In this document: one piece after another, positions 48,271 through 56,529 of the stretch
Position numbering within the stretch: position 1 is the first letter of the stretch
How the letters are laid out: the number at the start of each line of letters is the position of its first letter
Assembly (NCBI RefSeq): GCF_000015285.1
Contig: NC_008709.1
Coordinates: forward strand, 2,728,001 to 2,792,000
Direction: 5' to 3'
Source of the DNA: Psychromonas ingrahamii 37
GTDB lineage: Bacteria > Pseudomonadota > Gammaproteobacteria > Enterobacterales > Psychromonadaceae
DNA: 64,000 bases
Translations under genes and position numbers: made by a program
The notes under the pieces: generated by a model
The model's input: only the letters and a program-made list of their open reading frames with translations
The model's database searches: none
Told to the model about the DNA's origin: nothing

Positions 48271-49713
48271 TCATAAATTAGACTTGTAAATTCTTGGTAA
48301 GGTGATGATCACCTCCAAACCGCCCTGATCCCGATTAATAAGATGCAGCTGACCGTTATGTGCATGAATAATATTACGCGCAATACCGAGCCCAAGACCA
48401 TGGCCCTGCTGGTCATAATGTAAACGGCGATACGGCGTAAATATATTCTGAAGTTCTTTAACTGGAATACCCGGACCATTATCTTGAATTAAAAGCTGCA
48501 AACTTTCATCACTGTCCGTAAGGTAAACCTTTACTGAATGACCATACTTAACCCCATTATCTATTAAGTTAGAAAGACAGCGTTTTAACGCCAGAGGCTT
48601 ACCGCGATAAGGGGCAATTTCCCCGGAGATAATCTCTATTTGATCGGGTTGTGAACTACTTATCTGCTCTAATAATTTCAGCACATCAACTGACTGGATA
48701 TTTTCATGAATATCAGTATCTTTGACCGTTTGTAATGCCCCCTTAACCAACATTTCTAAATCGTCTAAATCGTGATTAAAGGCGACTATTTTTTTTTCAT
48801 TATTCAATAATTCCACGCGCAATCGTAACCGGGTAATAGGCGTTTTTAAATCATGAGAAATAGAGCGGAATAACACTTCACGATCTTGAATATAGCGCTG
48901 TAATTTTTGCTGCATGCGATTAAATGCGCGTGTCGCCATCACTATTTCAGAAGCTCCCTCTTCCTTAAGGGGTTTCTGGTATAAATCAATACTCATTTCA
49001 GACACCGCCAGAGCCAACTGTTTTAGGGGTCTGGTTTGCCAAAAAAAGAATAAAGAGATAAAGATAAGTAAAATAAAGGTAGTAAAAACCAGCGTAATGA
49101 TCTGTTGAGTTGATATAATTGAGTTTTGTGAAAGCAAATAAGGAGGAGGTAAAATAGCCGCCAGATAAAGCCACTCATTCTCAGCCATTTCAACCTGCAT
49201 CACTAAAACGGGTGGTTTAACGGAAGGAATAATCAAAGAATAAGCCCCCCAGGAAGGTGGTAAATTTTTTAATAAAATATCATTTTTTAATACGTGTAAA
49301 TTATCTGGATGTGAAAATTCTATGTGCAATTTTTTTTCCGTTGAAATTCTTCGCCTGAGTACATCCTTAACAGTTTTTATAATCTCACTTTTTAACCCAC
49401 TGGCCGCGATCGGATTGATGTTGATAAGTTCACTGTTTAACGACACAAAAAAACGGCTACCACCTAAATCTCGAAGTTGCTGTAACGCCAGATAACGGTA
49501 TTGCAGGGGCAAATCTTGAAAAAATGAAACAGTGCTTAAGGCATTTTCAGCTAAATTATTAGCATTAAGCAGCAGTGATTTTTCTTCACTTTCGGCAAAC
49601 TGATTTACCCAAAAAAAACTGCTCATGGCTTGTGCGACGATAACCGATACCATCGTCAGCAATAACATACGGGAAACTAATGATCTGAACAATAAGCGCA
49701 AATAAACCATCAT
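48271..49713 (-). CDS. sensor histidine kinase (GtrS-like)
   Basis: 480 residues: membrane helix 12-37, a periplasmic sensor domain of about 165 residues, a second helix near 203-226, HAMP, then the kinase core with phospho-acceptor His287 in SISHDLKTPITRLRLR, N-box LSNLIDNGVKYGHSV, DNGPGIP and GHGLGLGIARNI. The gene order regulator-kinase-binding protein recalls GltR-GtrS, the glucose-responsive pair of Pseudomonas. It starts 24 nt after the regulator gene and overlaps the alternative start of the binding-protein gene. Confidence 0.92.
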   Translation of the reverse strand: MMVYLRLLFRSLVSRMLLLTMVSVIVAQAMSSFFWVNQFAESEEKSLLLNANNLAENALSTVSFFQDLPLQYRYLALQQLRDLGGSRFFVSLNSELININPIAASGLKSEIIKTVKDVLRRRISTEKKLHIEFSHPDNLHVLKNDILLKNLPPSWGAYSLIIPSVKPPVLVMQVEMAENEWLYLAAILPPPYLLSQNSIISTQQIITLVFTTFILLIFISLFFFWQTRPLKQLALAVSEMSIDLYQKPLKEEGASEIVMATRAFNRMQQKLQRYIQDREVLFRSISHDLKTPITRLRLRVELLNNEKKIVAFNHDLDDLEMLVKGALQTVKDTDIHENIQSVDVLKLLEQISSSQPDQIEIISGEIAPYRGKPLALKRCLSNLIDNGVKYGHSVKVYLTDSDESLQLLIQDNGPGIPVKELQNIFTPYRRLHYDQQGHGLGLGIARNIIHAHNGQLHLINRDQGGLEVIITLPRIYKSNL

Positions 49714-49737
49714 ATTAATCCTGCATGACTAAAAATA

Positions 49738-50463
49738 TTAATTTTTTTCATTAACATCGGCGATAAAGACATATCCGGCACCGCGGATCGTTTTTATGAT
49801 TTTTGGTGATTTAGCATCATCCTTTAAACACTGACGCAAGCGGCTCACATGGACATCAATCCCACGCTCGTTGGCAAAAGCATCCCGGCCATGCAGTGCC
49901 TGACAAATTTGATCTCGTGAAATAGCGCTATTGGTATTGTCTAAAAATAGGGTAAGCAATTGAAAATCTGCACCGGTTAATGATATCTCATCTTTGTTGT
50001 CATCTATTAAAAGATGCTGTTTAGTGTCAAGCTTCCAGTTTGAAAACAATAAATAGCGCGCTTTTGCTGAGGGTTGATTTTCCTCACTGGCAAACTGTGT
50101 TCGTCTTAATAACGCTTTAATACGTGCCAGTAATTCTCGGGGGCTAAAGGGTTTAGCGATATAATCGTCAGCACCAATTTCCAGCCCTAACACACGATCC
50201 ATTTCATCGGAGTTAGCGGTTAACATAATAATCGGTACATGGGACGTCTGCCGGATTCGTTGGCAAAGGATAAAGCCGTCGTCACCGGGCAACATAATAT
50301 CCAGTATGATTAAATCGGGCTGATGGATTAATCGTTGTTTATCCATTTCCAGGCCGTCTTCCGCGGTAATCACATCAAAGTTATTCTTTGATAAATATTC
50401 CGCTAACAATTCACGTATTGCCTGGTCATCATCGATCACTAAAACTTGTTTATTATTGGTCAC
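49738..50463 (-). CDS. OmpR-family response regulator (GltR-like)
   Basis: 241 residues: receiver domain with acidic pocket VIDDDQ (10-13), phospho-acceptor Asp55 in LIILDIMLPGDDG, Thr in MLTAN, and Lys in IAKPFSP; then the winged-helix DNA-binding domain with LTGADFQLLTLFLDN and GRDAFANERGIDVHVSRLRQCL. First gene of the three-gene unit. The likely target is a sugar-uptake or sugar-catabolism gene outside the window. Confidence 0.92.
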   Translation of the reverse strand: MTNNKQVLVIDDDQAIRELLAEYLSKNNFDVITAEDGLEMDKQRLIHQPDLIILDIMLPGDDGFILCQRIRQTSHVPIIMLTANSDEMDRVLGLEIGADDYIAKPFSPRELLARIKALLRRTQFASEENQPSAKARYLLFSNWKLDTKQHLLIDDNKDEISLTGADFQLLTLFLDNTNSAISRDQICQALHGRDAFANERGIDVHVSRLRQCLKDDAKSPKIIKTIRGAGYVFIADVNEKN

Positions 50464-50739
50464 ATTTATTGCCTTTAAAAACAGAAATCCACAAACTCAT
50501 TATCGGCAGGATGTTAACGGAATCCTTTTTCAGTTAATAGCCGTGCCAGTCATTAATGATAAAATAAATCAGGCACTCAGCATAACATTTTTAAATGTGA
50601 GAAGAATATCTCAAAAAAAACACCTGCAACGATTCACTTTCCCCTCCAAAAATTTAATTTTTACGCTTAATTTTTATTATTAATTTGACAGTAAAATCAA
50701 TATCTAACAAAAAAAAGTCCGATACCCTGTTTTTTACAC

Positions 50740-50767
50740 TTGCCAGCAAACAAAACGATGATAAAAT
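50740..50767 (+). promoter_or_regulatory. probable promoter of the norspermidine operon
   Basis: TTGCCA (50740-50745) and TAAAAT (50762-50767) are 16 bp apart; a GCGCGCG discriminator follows. Transcription would start near 50774, giving a leader of about 300 nt before the first enzyme gene. A hairpin (50788-50797 with 50808-50817, 9 of 10 paired) lies at the leader's 5' end. Confidence 0.5.
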
Positions 50768-50865
50768 GCGCGCGCTGACACCGCACTAACACGTAGAACA
50801 ATCCATTTCTGCGTGTTTTAACACAACATTAAGAACAGCTTAAAATAATAATAGGAGCGTATTAA

Positions 50866-50973
50866 ATGTATCTATCAATCTTACTTAACCACGCTACAGC
50901 CCTGTTTTTTATTGGTTATGCTGCTTGTCACGCTTCATACCATACTTATTTAAACTCTCTCACAGAACCGTGA
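50866..50973 (+). CDS. 35-codon leader peptide candidate ahead of the norspermidine operon
   Basis: ATG with an AGGAG ribosome-binding site 9 nt upstream, open for 35 codons and ending Thr-Glu-Pro-UGA. The peptide begins MYLSILLNHATALFFIGYAA; the rest is rich in His and Tyr. The Pro-UGA end is also that of TnaC, where release is blocked when the ligand binds. It lies about 100 nt before dat in the same direction. A small membrane protein, given its hydrophobic middle, is the main alternative. Not recognised as a known family. Confidence 0.55.
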   Translation: MYLSILLNHATALFFIGYAACHASYHTYLNSLTEP

Positions 50974-51043
50974 GTTAATCGCTTAACCCCCTGTACCACC
51001 CTCATTTTTCTAAACGTAAGTAGAATCACTTTAACTCCATTTT
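50974..51043 (+). promoter_or_regulatory. C-rich, G-poor tract after the leader ORF (rut-like)
   Basis: Directly after the leader stop there are about 20 C and 6 G in 70 nt with no stable hairpin, including CCCCC and CCACCCTC. Rho prefers such RNA. No intrinsic terminator lies between leader and dat, so any attenuation here would have to be Rho-dependent or translational. Confidence 0.35.
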
Positions 51044-51076
51044 ATGGAGCACTTTAAAATATTTAAGGATCTCGTT

Positions 51077-52501
51077 ATGCAAAACGTCCTGAATTTGACG
51101 CCTGAAACCCATTTATCAAACGATCAAGAAATCCCCTTAGTAAACGAATTATATGATTTGACACCTGACAATGTGCTTTTAAATCAAGAACATTATGAAT
51201 CAGAAGTGCGCTCATACTCGCGTCGTTTACCGCTGGCGATTAATAAAAGTCGGGGCGTTATTATTGAAGATACCAAAGGACAAGTTTATTTAGATTGTCT
51301 TGCGGGTGCAGGTGCTTTGCCGCTTGGACACAACCATTTTGAAATCAACCAAGCGATGATAGAACAACTCAATAAAGGGGTACCTTATCAAACATTGGAT
51401 ATTACGACCCCGGGCAAAGACAAATTCATAAAATCTGTGATGCAGTTTTTACCCGCTAATTTTGCTAAAAATGCCTGTATTCAATTTTGTGGTCCCTCTG
51501 GGGCAGATGCTGTAGAAGCCTCTATTAAACTTGCAAAACTTTATACTAAACGTAATACCATGATTTCTTTCCATGGTGCTTACCACGGCATGACCAATGG
51601 CGCGTTATCATTAACCGGTAATTTGGGGGCTAAAAAACGCCGCAGCGGATTAATGCCCGATGTACATTTTTTCCCTTTTCCATACAATTTACGTTGTACC
51701 TTTGGCCTCGGTGGCATGGAAGGCGTTAAACAGAGCATTCGTTATATAGAATCGGTCTTAAATGATGATGAAAGTGGCATTACTAAACCTGCTGCTATTA
51801 TTGTTGAACCTATTCAGGGCGAAGGTGGGGTGAACCCTGCGCCGGTTTTCTGGTTACAGGAACTGCGACGTATTGCCACTGAACAAGGTATTTTATTAAT
51901 CTTTGATGAAATTCAGTGCGGTATTGGGCGCTCTGGAGACAATTTTGCTTTTGAAGCGTCAGGTATTGAGCCTGATATCCTTATATTATCCAAAGCGATT
52001 GGCGGTGGCATGCCCATGTCAGTTATTTTGTACAACAAAAAATTTGATTGCTGGAACGCAGGTGAACATACCGGTACTTTCCGCGGCAACCAGTTAGCGA
52101 TGGCAAGTGGCGCTAAAACACTGGAAATTATCCAACGTGATAATCTGGCCGAGAATGCCAAACAACGCGGTGAACAGTTACGCGCGTTATTATGCGAGAT
52201 TCAAACTGAAACAGATTGTATTGCCGAAGTGCGCGGACGCGGTTTAATGTGCGGCATTGAAATAGTCAAAGCAGGTAAATTTAACTCATTAGGCCATCCG
52301 GAAAGCGATCCTGAACGTGCATCATTAATTCAACGTGCCGCGTTAGAGCGTGGTTTAATCATTGAAAAAGGCGGCCGAAAAGGTGCTGTGTTACGCTTTT
52401 TACCACCCCTTATTATTAGCGAAACACAAATCAACTTTGTTGCTGAAACCGTTAAAGCTGCCATTATAGCGACACAGGATAACATCACTGATGCAGCCTA
52501 A
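51077..52501 (+). CDS. dat: L-2,4-diaminobutyrate--2-oxoglutarate aminotransferase
   Basis: PLP enzyme making L-2,4-diaminobutyrate from aspartate semialdehyde with glutamate as donor. Class III aminotransferase features: CGPSGADAVEASIKLAKLYT, FHGAYHGMTNGALSLTG, IVEPIQGEGGVNPAP, FDEIQCGIGRSG and the PLP-lysine region LSKAIGGGMPMS. The ATG at 51077 has AAGGA 8 nt upstream; the ATG at 51044 has none. 474 residues. It overlaps ddc by 11 nt. First gene of the norspermidine pathway. Confidence 0.93.
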   Translation: MQNVLNLTPETHLSNDQEIPLVNELYDLTPDNVLLNQEHYESEVRSYSRRLPLAINKSRGVIIEDTKGQVYLDCLAGAGALPLGHNHFEINQAMIEQLNKGVPYQTLDITTPGKDKFIKSVMQFLPANFAKNACIQFCGPSGADAVEASIKLAKLYTKRNTMISFHGAYHGMTNGALSLTGNLGAKKRRSGLMPDVHFFPFPYNLRCTFGLGGMEGVKQSIRYIESVLNDDESGITKPAAIIVEPIQGEGGVNPAPVFWLQELRRIATEQGILLIFDEIQCGIGRSGDNFAFEASGIEPDILILSKAIGGGMPMSVILYNKKFDCWNAGEHTGTFRGNQLAMASGAKTLEIIQRDNLAENAKQRGEQLRALLCEIQTETDCIAEVRGRGLMCGIEIVKAGKFNSLGHPESDPERASLIQRAALERGLIIEKGGRKGAVLRFLPPLIISETQINFVAETVKAAIIATQDNITDAA

Positions 52502-53975
52502 TTCACCTTGGTCCAAGCACTTTATCCAAGTCGCCGGGGCCAATAACCAGGCCTTTACAGTCGCCAGCCAGCAAGCACTGGATAATATAAACAGTCTCTT
52601 TGCGCAGTGCACTAAACCTTATTCGGGTTTGACGCCGGATTTGTTAAAAGAAGCAATTTATAACAGCAATTTAGATAAGGTTGAACCACTACAGCAGGTT
52701 ATTGAGCAAACCAATGATCTGATCGCTAAAAATTCAATTATGGTACAACACCCGCATTGTATTGCGCACCTTCATACCCCGCCATTAATCTCGTCGGTGG
52801 TGGCTGAATTTTATATTGCGGCATTGAACCAATCAATGGACTCATGGGATCAGGCATCTGCTGCGACTTATCTAGAGCAGTTTATTATCGATTGGCTGCT
52901 TAAAACCTATGCGCTCGGCGATAGTGCTGATGGTGTTTTCACCAGCGGCGGCACGCAGAGTAATTTAATGGGCTTATTATTGGCACGGGACTGGTTTGCA
53001 CAACACTATTCTGGCCATAATATTCAGCAGGATGGTTTACCTGATTACGGTAATAAATTACGTATTATCTGTTCAGATAAAAGCCATTTTACCATTCAAA
53101 AATCCGCCTCATTAATGGGTCTTGGGGAACGTTCGGTTGTGTGCATTAAAACCAATATTCAAGGTCAGATGGATACTGTGCATTTGCAGAGCACCCTTGA
53201 TGATTTGCTGGCACAGGGATTATTGCCGATGGCAGTGGTTGCCACCGCAGGCACAACGGATCATGGCGCCATTGATGATTTACAGGAAATTATAAAAATC
53301 AGCCGCCATTTCGGTCTGTGGTGCCATGTCGACGGGGCCTATGGTGGCGCATTAATGCTTAGTCAAAAACATAAATCCCGTCTACTAGGCATGGAATCAG
53401 CTGATTCCGTGAGTGTGGATTTTCATAAACTCTTCTATCAAACCATCAGTTGCGGCGCTTTATTAATTAAAAATAAAACACACTTTAAAAGTCTGTTGCA
53501 CCATGCAGATTACCTTAACCGGGAAGGTGATGATCTGCCTAACCTGGTTGATAAAAGTATTGCTACAACCAAACGTTTTGATGCATTGAAAATGTTTATG
53601 ACCTTAAAAGGGGTCGGTGCTAATACATTGGGTGAAATGTACGACAAGTTAATTGAACTCACTCAGGCGGTGGCAAAATCTGTGCAGCAAAACAGCCATT
53701 TTGAGCTTTGTTGTGAGCCATTATTATCAACGGTTTTATTTCGCTTAAGCACAAAATATCAAGGTCTATTAACGCTTAATGAGTTTAATCAGCTACAGCA
53801 AAAATTACGTTTGCAATTATTAACCTGTGGCGATGCTGTGATTGGCGAAACCAAAGTTGATGGCAAACTTTATCTTAAATTTACCCTGTTAAACCCCTGT
53901 TTAACATTAAACAATTTTGATAATTTATTTAAAAAAATCGAAAGGCATGCACAACAATTAATACCTAATACCTAA
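52491..53975 (+). CDS. ddc: L-2,4-diaminobutyrate decarboxylase
   Basis: Group II PLP decarboxylase producing 1,3-diaminopropane. Seen: HPHCIAHLHTPPLISSVVAEFYIAALNQSMDSWDQA, FTSGGTQSNLMGLLLAR, HVDGAYGGALML and the PLP-lysine region DSVSVDFHKLFYQTISCGAL. 494 residues. The start overlaps the end of dat, so translation is coupled. In Vibrio cholerae the two activities are, as I recall, fused in one chain. The last codons and the stop lie inside two ACCTAAT heptamers. Confidence 0.94.
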   Translation: MQPNSPWSKHFIQVAGANNQAFTVASQQALDNINSLFAQCTKPYSGLTPDLLKEAIYNSNLDKVEPLQQVIEQTNDLIAKNSIMVQHPHCIAHLHTPPLISSVVAEFYIAALNQSMDSWDQASAATYLEQFIIDWLLKTYALGDSADGVFTSGGTQSNLMGLLLARDWFAQHYSGHNIQQDGLPDYGNKLRIICSDKSHFTIQKSASLMGLGERSVVCIKTNIQGQMDTVHLQSTLDDLLAQGLLPMAVVATAGTTDHGAIDDLQEIIKISRHFGLWCHVDGAYGGALMLSQKHKSRLLGMESADSVSVDFHKLFYQTISCGALLIKNKTHFKSLLHHADYLNREGDDLPNLVDKSIATTKRFDALKMFMTLKGVGANTLGEMYDKLIELTQAVAKSVQQNSHFELCCEPLLSTVLFRLSTKYQGLLTLNEFNQLQQKLRLQLLTCGDAVIGETKVDGKLYLKFTLLNPCLTLNNFDNLFKKIERHAQQLIPNT

Positions 53976-53976
53976 T
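53963..53976. repeat. ACCTAAT heptamer pair across the ddc stop codon
   Basis: Two exact copies of the heptamer found six times at 4275-4319. They encode the last residues of Ddc (Pro-Asn-Thr) and its TAA stop, so a gain or loss of units would change the protein end. Confidence 0.75.
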
Positions 53977-54033
53977 ACCCAAAATAATTAAATGATCACC
54001 TTTTTATTTTTTTATAACTTACAGAAAAATATA

Positions 54034-54086
54034 GATAATACCCATTCCACTCAAGAGAAGATTCAATAAGTGGATTGGGTATTATC
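54034..54086 (+). promoter_or_regulatory. 18-bp inverted repeat in the leader of the carboxynorspermidine dehydrogenase gene
   Basis: 54034-54051 and 54069-54086 pair at 17 of 18 positions (GATAATACCCATTCCACT) with a 17-nt loop. The hairpin ends 19 nt before the ATG and just before the AAGGA ribosome-binding site. The arm end recalls the MITE terminus at 27739, so it may be a small element captured between ddc and the next gene; no T tract follows. Confidence 0.6.
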
Positions 54087-54105
54087 TCTTAACAAGGACT
54101 TTAAA

Positions 54106-55323
54106 ATGTCAGTATTACAGATAGGCGCCGGTGGCGTTGGTTGGGTTATTGCCCATAAATGTGCCCTGCATAATGATGTATTTGGCGATATCACCCTAGC
54201 TTCCCGCACTATTTCTAAATGTGAAAAAATTATTACCTCTATTAAAGGACGTAATAATCTGAAAGACACCACTAAAAAAATATCAGCAGTGGCGGTTAAT
54301 GCCGATGATCTTAATGCCCTGGTTAAACTTATTAATGAAGTCAAACCCGATTTACTGATCAATGCGGGCCCCCCTTGGGTGAACGTCAATATTATGGAAG
54401 CCTGTGTTTTAACTAAAACCGCTTACCTTGATACCTCGGTTGCGACAGATTTATGCAGTCCCGGACAACAAGTTCCTGAAGCTTATGATCCGCAATGGGC
54501 CTTTGCCGAACGTTTTAAAGAAGCCGGTATTACGGGTATTTTAAGTACGGGTTGTGATCCGGGTGTAGTCAGTGTTTTTGCAACCTATGCCCATAAGCAC
54601 CTGTTTGATGAAATTGATAGTATTGATGTGATGGACGTTAATGCGGGCGATCACGGTCAAAAATTTGCCACTAACTTTGATCCTGAAACCAACTTATTAG
54701 AAATTCAAGGTGATTCTTTTTACTTTGAGAATCAGCAGTGGAAAAGTGTTCCCTGCCATAGTCGTATGATGGAATTTGATTTCCCCGTGGTGGGTCCGCA
54801 AAAAGTGTACTCCATGGCACATGATGAAGTACGTTCTTTGGCTGAATATATTCCCGCTAAACGTATCGAATTCTGGATGGGTTTCTCCGATTCCTACCTT
54901 AATTATTTTAATATGCTGCGTGATCTTGGCCTGCTAAGCCCTAAGCCCATTACCACAGCTGAAGGCATTACGGTTAAACCCCTGCAGGTATTAAAAGCTA
55001 TTTTACCCGATCCCACTTCCCTTGCATCCGGTTATACGGGTAAAACCTGTATTGGCACCTGGATACGCGGTCAAAAAGATGGCCTGCCTAAAAGTGTCTT
55101 TATCTACAATATTTGCGACCATAAAGAATCTTATATTGAAGTTGAACATCAGGCAATTTCCTATACAACGGGTGTACCTGCGATCACCGCCGCCCTGCTT
55201 TACTTTCAGGGTAAATGGAATGATGTGGGTTTATTCAATGTAGAACAGCTCAACCCAGATGATTTCTTAGCGCTAATGCCAAGTGTCGGTTTAACCTGGC
55301 AGGTACAAGAGCTAGACGCTTAA
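54106..55323 (+). CDS. carboxynorspermidine dehydrogenase
   Basis: Saccharopine-dehydrogenase-family enzyme that condenses 1,3-diaminopropane with aspartate semialdehyde and reduces the imine with NADPH to carboxynorspermidine. N-terminal NADP site MSVLQIGAGGVGWVIAHKCA, then LLINAGPPWVNVNIMEAC, AYLDTS and GILSTGCDPGVVSVFATYA. 405 residues. The AAGGACTTTAAA before the ATG at 54106 decides the start; twelve upstream codons are within the hairpin region. Confidence 0.94.
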   Translation: MSVLQIGAGGVGWVIAHKCALHNDVFGDITLASRTISKCEKIITSIKGRNNLKDTTKKISAVAVNADDLNALVKLINEVKPDLLINAGPPWVNVNIMEACVLTKTAYLDTSVATDLCSPGQQVPEAYDPQWAFAERFKEAGITGILSTGCDPGVVSVFATYAHKHLFDEIDSIDVMDVNAGDHGQKFATNFDPETNLLEIQGDSFYFENQQWKSVPCHSRMMEFDFPVVGPQKVYSMAHDEVRSLAEYIPAKRIEFWMGFSDSYLNYFNMLRDLGLLSPKPITTAEGITVKPLQVLKAILPDPTSLASGYTGKTCIGTWIRGQKDGLPKSVFIYNICDHKESYIEVEHQAISYTTGVPAITAALLYFQGKWNDVGLFNVEQLNPDDFLALMPSVGLTWQVQELDA

Positions 55324-55337
55324 TCTCCGCTTACTTT

Positions 55338-55364
55338 AAACGAAGGTTCCGGCCTTCGTTTTTA
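55338..55364 (+). terminator. intrinsic terminator between the dehydrogenase gene and nspC
   Basis: AAACGAAGG/CCTTCGTTT stem (55338-55346 with 55353-55361), 6-nt loop, then TTTTT. It lies 15 nt after the dehydrogenase stop and 35 nt before nspC, so it should lower nspC relative to the first three genes, unless nspC has its own promoter. Confidence 0.8.
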
Positions 55365-55398
55365 TTCCTACTTTCTAACCTAAAAAAAGACTCCCATT

Positions 55399-56529
55399 AT
55401 GCGCTTTAATGAAAACCAATTAACCACCCCTTATTTTATGGTCGATGAAAAAAAGCTGATTGAAAATCTTGAAAAAGCCAAACAGCTGAAAAAAATTTCA
55501 GGGGCTAAATTAGTATTAGCATTAAAGTGTTTTTCAACCTGGGGAACGTTCGACACAATTAAACCCTATTTAGACGGCACCACCAGCTCCGGCCCTTTTG
55601 AAGTTCAACTAGGCCATGAGACCTTTGGCGGTGAAACCCATGCCTACAGCGTGGGTTATTCTAGCCACGATATCAATACCGTTGCGCCTTTATCGGACAA
55701 AATCATCTTTAACTCATTAACTCAGTTGGCCACACATTTTGAGGCAGCCAATCCCTTTGCATCCTTAGGCTTGCGCATTAATCCTGAGCGCAGCGTTGCC
55801 GGTCAAGATCTTGCCAATCCAACCCGCCCTTACTCACGTTTAGGCGTAAAACAGGATTTACTGGATTTATCCATTGTTGATAAAGTGGATGGTTTTATGT
55901 TTCATATGAACTGTGAAAACAAAGATGCCGATGCCTTTATAGAAATTTTAGATTATATTTCGAACACCTTTGCAGAATATTTAACCCACCTTAAATGGTT
56001 AAGTTTAGGCGGTGGGATTTTCTTTACTGCGCCGGATTACCCGATTGAAAAACTGGCCCTGGCATTAAAAGCCTTTAGTGAAAAACACCAGCTTCAACTC
56101 TACTTAGAGCCCGGTGAAGCAATTATCACCCGCACCGCGGATCTGGTGGTCAGCGTCATTGATATTGTTGATAATAATAAAAAAACAGCCATTGTAGACA
56201 GTGCCACAGAAGCCCATCGTTTAGATACGCTAATCTACAATGAACCAGCCTCGATTGGCGAGGCCTCCGCTGATGGAGCATTCCCCTATATTATAGGATC
56301 ATGCTCCTGTTTAGCAGGCGATCAATTCTGTGAAACACAATTTGATGAAGCGCTGCAAATTGGGCAAAAATTACATATTCTCGATTCTGCCGGTTATACC
56401 ATGGTCAAACTAAATTGGTTTAACGGTTTGAAAATGCCCAGTATCTACTACAAGCGTGTCGATGGGGAAATTGAGTTATTAAACTCTTTTGACTATCAAG
56501 ATTATAAAGACAGTTTAGGCAAAGGCTAA
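55399..56529 (+). CDS. nspC: carboxynorspermidine decarboxylase
   Basis: PLP-dependent alanine-racemase-fold decarboxylase, the last step to norspermidine; related enzymes also act on carboxyspermidine. PLP lysine at about 43 in [49 protein letters not shown] and the C-terminal [13 protein letters not shown] catalytic-Cys region are seen. 376 residues. In Vibrio cholerae this enzyme is linked to biofilm formation. Confidence 0.96.

Follow-up and report, generated by a model that had tools for sequence, protein, structure and literature searches.

A conserved leader peptide ending in Glu-Pro-UGA is very likely a control switch for norspermidine synthesis in Psychromonas and Vibrionaceae

The norspermidine operon of Psychromonas ingrahamii 37 is preceded by a leader containing a short open reading frame (ORF) that ends in Pro-UGA, and the locus thus raises the question of whether this ORF controls the operon and, if so, by what means. 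In the window, the whole stretch of 64,000 nt that was analysed, the operon dat–ddc–carboxynorspermidine synthase–nspC lies on the + strand at 51077–56529. It comprises dat, encoding diaminobutyrate--2-oxoglutarate transaminase (51077–52501; TIGR00709, 535 bits, cut-off 401.6), a ddc-like gene of the diaminobutyrate decarboxylase family (52491–53975; best match NF052646, below its cut-off, and hence assigned at the family level only), the gene for carboxynorspermidine synthase/dehydrogenase (54112–55323; NF043000, above cut-off) and nspC, encoding carboxynorspermidine decarboxylase (55399–56529; TIGR01047, above cut-off). An OmpR/EnvZ-like two-component gene pair lies divergently upstream of the leader, on the − strand (48271–50463). 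At gathering thresholds, Rfam returned a tRNA and nothing else for the whole window.

The initial annotation had given this leader a good promoter, a 5′ hairpin, a 35-codon ORF with a ribosome-binding site and a Pro-UGA end, and no intrinsic terminator. The promoter scan found TTGCCA-16-TAAAAT (50740–50767, + strand; 10/12, with TG), followed by GCGCGC, and a very similar block occurs in most of the 23 Psychromonas leaders compared. This promoter block, TTTTTACACTTGCC...GATGATAAAATGCGCGCG (window 50730–50780), is strikingly conserved across leaders whose peptide ends in Thr-Glu-Pro (TEP), those ending in Val-Glu-Pro (VEP) carry a close variant, and its start region is GC-rich in Psychromonas. 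The ribosome-binding site AGGAG (50853–50857, +) and the ATG-initiated ORF of 35 codons (50866–50973, +) were likewise read as described, the peptide being MYLSILLNHATALFFIGYAACHASYHTYLNSLTEP followed by TGA; an AGGAG- or GGAGG-like motif precedes the start in those Psychromonas leaders that have a start codon. The last four codons, ACA GAA CCG TGA (50962–50973, +), form the conserved core, in which codons vary synonymously and the stop is always TGA. Behind them, 103 nt separate the stop from the dat ATG. A C-rich stretch begins 7 nt past the stop (50980–51003, +) and is a candidate Rho loading site or anti-Shine-Dalgarno element. Two hairpins are predicted by folding further on, CTCCATTTTATGGAG (51035–51049, +), which has a resembling counterpart, TTCCATTTTATGG, in most of 13 Psychromonas TEP leaders, and CTTTAAAATATTTAAGG (51052–51068, +), which includes part of the dat ribosome-binding site (51065–51069); the latter is the fold of the window leader (L021), and other leaders show variants. 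The absence of an intrinsic terminator held for the + strand of 50400–51400, where the scan's one site lay on the − strand. The 5′ hairpin did not survive comparison, as Psychromonas 5′ leaders differ in length and sequence; because it is not conserved, it is not a core part of the leader.

Conservation in relatives had been set beforehand as the test that could refute the proposal, and both the ORF and its Pro-UGA end proved to be kept. A frame ending in [Thr/Val/Pro]-Glu-Pro-UGA lies ahead of dat in 103/104 leaders from Psychromonas, Motilimonas and Vibrionaceae (92 distinct tails, in a pool where some genomes appear twice under different handles), versus 0/40 distant dat loci (0/31 and 0/9). 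The frames were located by a Glu-Pro-stop search, so Glu and Pro are fixed by construction, and the informative quantities are the number of leaders having the frame, the stop codon and the residue before Glu; for the last, the pooled scan required Thr, Val or Pro, and an earlier unrestricted scan had given the same three. The 31 loci comprise L099 and 30 others, whose dat is 47–55% identical, and none has such a frame within 800 nt with any stop allowed. The nine are those of the distant loci L134–L143 with a readable dat start, L134 having given none.

All 24 Psychromonadaceae genomes examined, which belong to the single genus Psychromonas, carry dat. The ORF with a start codon is present in 22, of which 21 were recognized by scan as ending in Glu-Pro-TGA and the 22nd (L025) by hand; one genome has the frame without a start and one has none. 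The former, L042 (G004), holds an open frame ending ATEP-TGA, yet no ATG, GTG or TTG start was found; the latter, L043 (G017), has the most divergent dat of the genus and no Glu-Pro-TGA ORF, with dat and ddc present up to the end of the contig. These two are natural loss cases. A second dat homologue in G008 (L045; 49–51% identical) has no upstream Glu-Pro-stop ORF. The end is TEP in 13 Psychromonas leaders (L021–L025, L028, L036–L038, L040–L042 and L044) and VEP in 10 (L026, L027, L029–L035 and L039). The peptide bodies differ by group, as in MYLSILLNHATALFFIGYAACHASYHTYLNSLTEP (window), MQHTYIDSSKPLNRYFTPQNQYLLQYRERTVEP (L031) and MIFQLINKFRVPKPLCRSIFSAIRTEP (L038), and run from hydrophobic in L028 (MSLLILFSIAVSLLLLTFLCSDKSYHNFVTEP, read from its ribosome-binding site) to hydrophilic in L031. 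Lengths are 24 to 38 residues, with three longer readings of 58–68 that start further upstream, and no residue beyond xEP is common to the Psychromonas peptides compared. Across all groups, the last two residues alone, Glu-Pro, are shared, after Thr, Val or Pro.

Among the best 80 named loci, 49 of the first 50 (L054–L103) have a Glu-Pro-TGA frame whose stop lies at most 360 nt from the dat match, the exception being Massilia frigida L099. A Vibrio leader reads like MGNPTLNSLNKHTLISLVLPQCPVLQDSCITEP, a Photobacterium leader ...ISFVLPNCSIITEP and the Motilimonas leader ...AISLFCLMPEP. The frame was also present in 10/10 further Vibrio loci (L144–L153) and in 3/3 of L051–L053. When one leader peptide was compared with 148 Vibrio genomes, 107 were matched at E ≤0.1, mostly once, giving about one leader copy per genome. 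Three genomes gave a second match, in each case inside a 1618-residue frame, and these candidates for paralogues were rejected. A further 20/20 Vibrio loci end in ITEP-TGA, namely 17 weak matches (E 1.6e-5 or worse), G131 (unmatched) and two unlisted dat loci (G333 and G369); in G218, G102 and G245, also unmatched by the peptide query, a divergent ITEP frame is present. Inserted CPILQ-like repeats enlarge the Vibrio leader frame to about 50–60 codons in L087, L088, L090, L182–L186 and L188–L196, and these leaders still end in ITEP-TGA. L182, L184, L189, L191–L193 and L196 hold a second frame, whose Lys-Glu-Pro-TGA lies about 256 nt upstream of the leader end; this frame may be due to chance or be a by-product of conserved RNA.

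The leader also follows the completeness of the operon. In the best 80 named loci, to which the scoring of completeness was confined, the complete set of dat, ddc, CANSDH and CANSDC and the leader occurred together in 49/49, and the leader was absent from 31/31 loci with an incomplete operon, of which 29 hold dat alone and two, L099 and L109, dat plus ddc.

Uncorrected Nei-Gojobori counts indicate that the leader peptide is under codon-level selection. Over the last 20 codons, pN/pS was 0.34 in 39 Vibrio leaders (shifted frames 1.61 and 0.73), 0.41 in 20 Photobacterium/Enterovibrio leaders (1.87 and 1.79) and 0.36 in 9 Psychromonas VEP leaders (1.08 and 1.68), the shifted-frame controls covering the 14–18 of 20 codon columns free of stops in these three groups. 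In the 13 TEP leaders, the ratio was 0.44, 0.66 and 0.81 over the last 6, 12 and 20 codons, a gradient that fits a short motif; the ORF body gains little from it in the window's own group, where the constraint is confined to the peptide end. For the last three codons pS was 0.17–0.70 and pN 0, the latter a foregone result of choosing the groups by their tails, which leaves only pS informative there. Third positions at the end vary (Thr ACT/ACC/ACG/ACA, Glu GAA/GAG, Pro CCT/CCG/CCC). The stop was TGA in every frame found by scans allowing any stop (103/103); of 161 stops counted for dat, ddc, CANSDH and CANSDC across the 49 named loci, 11 were TGA, the count taking in only those 14 nspC stops that fall within the loci. 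Of the two release factors, RF2 recognizes UGA and RF1 does not.

Chance seldom produces such a frame, since 9 of 5000 mononucleotide shuffles of 50771–51076 gave an open frame of at least 15 codons ending in Glu-Pro-TGA. The pattern ACNGARCCNTGA occurs 21 times in the P. ingrahamii 37 genome, and the dat leader alone combines an in-frame start more than 4 codons away with a Shine-Dalgarno-like motif. The other 20 matches were considered as further leaders and rejected, none having the layout of the dat leader; 13 of them belong to one tandem array and one (L174) is antisense to a 626-codon open frame. The array (G000:C1:3517392–3521174) consists of tandem repeats with 13 exact copies of ACTGAACCCTGA spaced 303 or 318 nt apart. 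Judged from these comparisons, the leader is almost certainly a real selected element.

In Vibrionaceae, the ORF is joined to a known RNA motif, RF02951 (DABA-DC-AT), which reportedly comes from a 2017 paper. At the gathering score, RF02951 lies directly before the ORF in 7/8 Vibrionaceae loci and 10/10 Vibrio loci, and the one miss, L063, scores 55.1 against a cut-off of 56.1. RF02951 had no match in the window and none up to E 10 in 7 Psychromonas and 3 Motilimonas leaders, and its presence was rejected for these 10 leaders, which still have the ORF. Because Psychromonas and Motilimonas keep the ORF without RF02951, the xEP-UGA end is the shared core. The RF02951 model ends in GGGAAACCCAACA, and the leader ORF starts at the 3′ end of the motif. 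In Vibrio, an ATG overlaps the RF02951 tail and a TTG follows it. In Photobacterium L061 and L064–L066, an upstream stop closes the frame and the first possible start is a GTG right after AGGAACCCAACA, so that the RF02951 tail is, at least there, the ribosome-binding region of the leader.

Furthermore, the apical loop of the second RF02951 stem, AAGCUGAUU, is complementary to AAUCAGCUU inside the ORF, so that in most loci the loop faces the codons Ile-Ser (e.g., L080 3539–3788). In 74 of 75 Vibrionaceae leaders (L070 lacking the anchor), the mean energy of the best duplex anywhere in the 58-nt ORF segment was −9.03, versus −5.89 (sd 0.20) for shuffled ORF segments, and exchange of partners between loci reached the observed mean in 26 of 5000 permutations, a proportion that is not a strict probability as the loci are related. 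The best duplex covers the ATCAGC site in 53/74 loci and lies elsewhere or in another register in 21, which include L079 and the group it heads, where a stronger duplex is predicted further along. The duplex is weak (−1.5 to −4.4) in L066, L067, L068, L100 and L103, and the two sides mismatch in L069 and L102. In the Enterovibrio/Grimontia loci L071, L072 and L075, both sides change together (loop GUUGAAG, ORF CUUCAGC), although for L071 and L075 the program favours another register. ATCAGC is present in 62/76 leaders (75 Vibrionaceae and Motilimonas L060). Among the 55 distinct in-frame cases, the preceding codon ends in A in all but one and the next codon always begins with T, with residues varying; ATCAGC itself was required for this count, so its invariance, unlike that of the flanking A and T, is by construction. 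In most Vibrionaceae, RNA motif and ORF therefore look like one device, to judge from this complementarity, and the Rfam model may end too early on its 3′ side, the motif extending into the leader ORF.

The region behind the stop is less uniform. The initial annotation had placed a C-rich tract there, and this stood for the window (80 nt past the stop: C 0.28, G 0.11) and for Psychromonas (means of 0.22 and 0.11, 23 leaders) and failed for Vibrionaceae (0.213 and 0.195, 42 leaders of L061–L103). Because Vibrionaceae do not share this excess of C over G, a Rho site deduced from composition was rejected as a feature of the leaders in general, and Rho loading behind the stop is only one option. 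Consensus folds of free MAFFT alignments gave 0.0 for 24 Vibrio leaders and a weak −0.75 for 13 Psychromonas TEP leaders, whose individual folds differ. A direct search, on the other hand, found a small hairpin starting 18–23 nt past the stop in 24/27 mainly Vibrio leaders (L074–L101), with p ≤0.1 in 20 of the 27; the same level was reached, at less uniform positions, in 8/13 Psychromonas TEP, 6/7 VEP and 4/14 Photobacterium/Enterovibrio leaders. Covariation was scored in 21 of the 27 (L074, L075, L088, L090, L093 and L100 left out; L077 included but out of register), with 96.8% of cells paired, a value that leans upwards because the 21 were chosen after the hairpin had been seen, and with double changes in 5/6 pairs; the covariation score, 0.673 as aligned, did not exceed 0.115 once the partners were shifted by 1–3 columns. 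In the sequences inspected, this hairpin has no clear T run behind it. It would lie just downstream of the edge of a ribosome stalled at the UGA, and it may pause RNA polymerase or shape the access of Rho.

Considering these results, we propose the following scenario. The leader is very likely a control switch for norspermidine synthesis, and the best explanation, which we hold to be likely, is a leader peptide that acts in cis by causing the ribosome to pause at the peptide's own stop codon. This is the best reading because Glu-Pro before a stop stalls termination in Escherichia coli, where it has been used in a tmRNA-based selection (PMC13410324), and because TnaC blocks release by RF2 when its Pro24 occupies the P site and UGA the A site (PMC8429421). 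Proteomics also reported Glu-Pro as one of the C-terminal dipeptides preferentially tagged at the stop (PMC3985003), and the penultimate residue matters in TnaC (PMC8429421). Arrest at Pro-UGA as the control of dat, the central proposal of the initial annotation, thus finds support in conservation, in selection seen at the codon level, in the unvarying UGA and in the Glu-Pro-stop stalling known from the literature, and termination arrest as the action of the leader has a good probability on this evidence.

In this scenario, RF2 would be slow in releasing the peptide at E-P-UGA. The continuation of transcription into dat would then depend on whether the ribosome remains or departs, since this would determine whether Rho can reach the region past the stop; for Rho as the downstream step, we put the chance slightly below even. 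Alternatively, it is the opening of the dat ribosome-binding site that would depend on the fate of the ribosome. Polyamines raise RF2 synthesis in E. coli. If the release rate were set by polyamine or by the state of RF2, a feedback on norspermidine synthesis would result, and sensing of polyamine by the leader is put forward tentatively. As little but the end is shared across Psychromonas, such a signal would more likely be read at the peptidyl-transferase centre or the release factor than by way of a ligand-binding pocket that the peptide shapes within the tunnel. A wider and rather doubtful extension is a class of xEP-UGA arrest leaders without a tunnel sensor, in which termination would sense polyamine through RF2 activity or through polyamine in the peptidyl-transferase centre, and which in Vibrionaceae would form the output stage of DABA-DC-AT, an orphan candidate riboswitch; there, an RNA aptamer and termination arrest would form a two-input switch acting on norspermidine synthesis.

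Other explanations have to be weighed against termination arrest. In translation attenuation, the stalled ribosome would mask the C-rich stretch, which would otherwise pair with the dat ribosome-binding site, and no transcription would be terminated. The placing of that site within a predicted hairpin in the window leader, a fold of L022 in which an ATCCT segment behind the stop pairs with AGGAT of dat, and the terminator-free + strand of 50400–51400 are consistent with it; the weak consensus and differing single folds of the 13 leaders argue against it, as does the distance of 142–360 nt between the stop and the dat match in Vibrionaceae, which is far for masking. We consider it unlikely.

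The remaining three readings are far less probable. That the ORF encodes a functional small protein, for instance a membrane peptide, which merely happens to precede dat would account for its conservation, its selection and its good ribosome-binding site in Psychromonas; this is very improbable given bodies that change from hydrophobic to hydrophilic within one genus at lengths of 24 to 38 residues, and the invariant UGA points to a termination event instead. Slightly less credible still is a conserved end that acts as an RNA signal, such as a protein-binding site or an RNA structure, and not as peptide, since third codon positions vary at T-E-P and the nucleotides past the stop are not fixed, even though the A-ATCAGC-T part of the ORF is constrained as RNA in Vibrionaceae. 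Programmed readthrough or +1 frameshifting at CCN-UGA, as in the antizyme or RF2 genes, recalls the action of polyamines on antizyme frameshifting and the +1 frameshifting at UGA used in RF2 synthesis (PMC5009743). No long open continuation is seen, however: in 66 leaders, the open runs behind the stop have median lengths, by frame, of 12, 13 and 5 codons, with minima of 0 or 1 and none longer than 72. The base after UGA is T, G or A, and we give this reading the smallest chance of all.

A literature search that left out most subscription journals found no description of a norspermidine leader peptide, and the leader is likely, though not certainly, previously undescribed. In the same literature, no cis-regulator of the norspermidine operon was found, the one met being the orphan Rfam motif RF02951. 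In Vibrio cholerae, biofilm formation has been linked to the making of norspermidine (PMC11531321). With a known termination-stalling end as the one universal feature of the leader, bacterial polyamine sensing becomes testable by a simple reporter, and the DABA-DC-AT RNA gains a concrete candidate output, namely the initiation and translation of the leader peptide. Conserved short ORFs ending in Glu-Pro-UGA or Pro-stop are suggested as a search rule for further regulators.

Among known systems, the leader has the general traits of a termination-arrest leader, a short selected ORF that precedes an operon and whose C-terminal end, next to the stop, is conserved. The initial annotation had compared its layout with TnaC and SpeFL, and the Pro-UGA end and the place in a polyamine pathway bear this out, but the TnaC sensor residues and the RF1-read stop of SpeFL are missing. 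In TnaC, a rut site lies directly behind the stop, Rho terminates transcription, and the arrest is induced by free L-Trp. Like TnaC (PMC8429421), the norspermidine leader is a short ORF with a Pro-UGA end, an RF2-read stop and an operon behind it. It differs in its penultimate residue (Glu for Arg), in the lack of conserved counterparts of Trp12 and Asp16, the strictly conserved sensor of TnaC (the window peptide has no Trp), in serving a biosynthetic polyamine operon, and in a peptide body that is not shared across Psychromonas; the two resemble each other in how they work (Pro-UGA, RF2) and do not belong to one family. SpeFL, the ornithine-sensing leader of speF, is likewise a polyamine-pathway leader peptide that arrests at its stop codon, but it inhibits RF1-mediated release (PMC8429421), whereas the norspermidine leaders all end in UGA, which RF1 does not read. 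MdtU, a leader ORF of 34 codons in E. coli, is required for induction by spermidine, a process in which Rho takes part, and ends 106 nt before mdtJI, the spermidine exporter (PMC7815308), compared with 103 nt before dat. Because MdtU ends in Asn-Ala-Leu-UAG (translated in this analysis), and not in Thr-Glu-Pro-UGA, it is a parallel and not a relative, and it governs export in place of synthesis. RF02951 is a cis-regulatory motif of the same operon in Vibrionaceae, absent from the Psychromonas leaders tested. Elsewhere, Glu-Pro-stop stalling has been reported for ordinary proteins or as a selection tool (PMC3985003, PMC13410324), whereas here it has apparently been kept for regulation.
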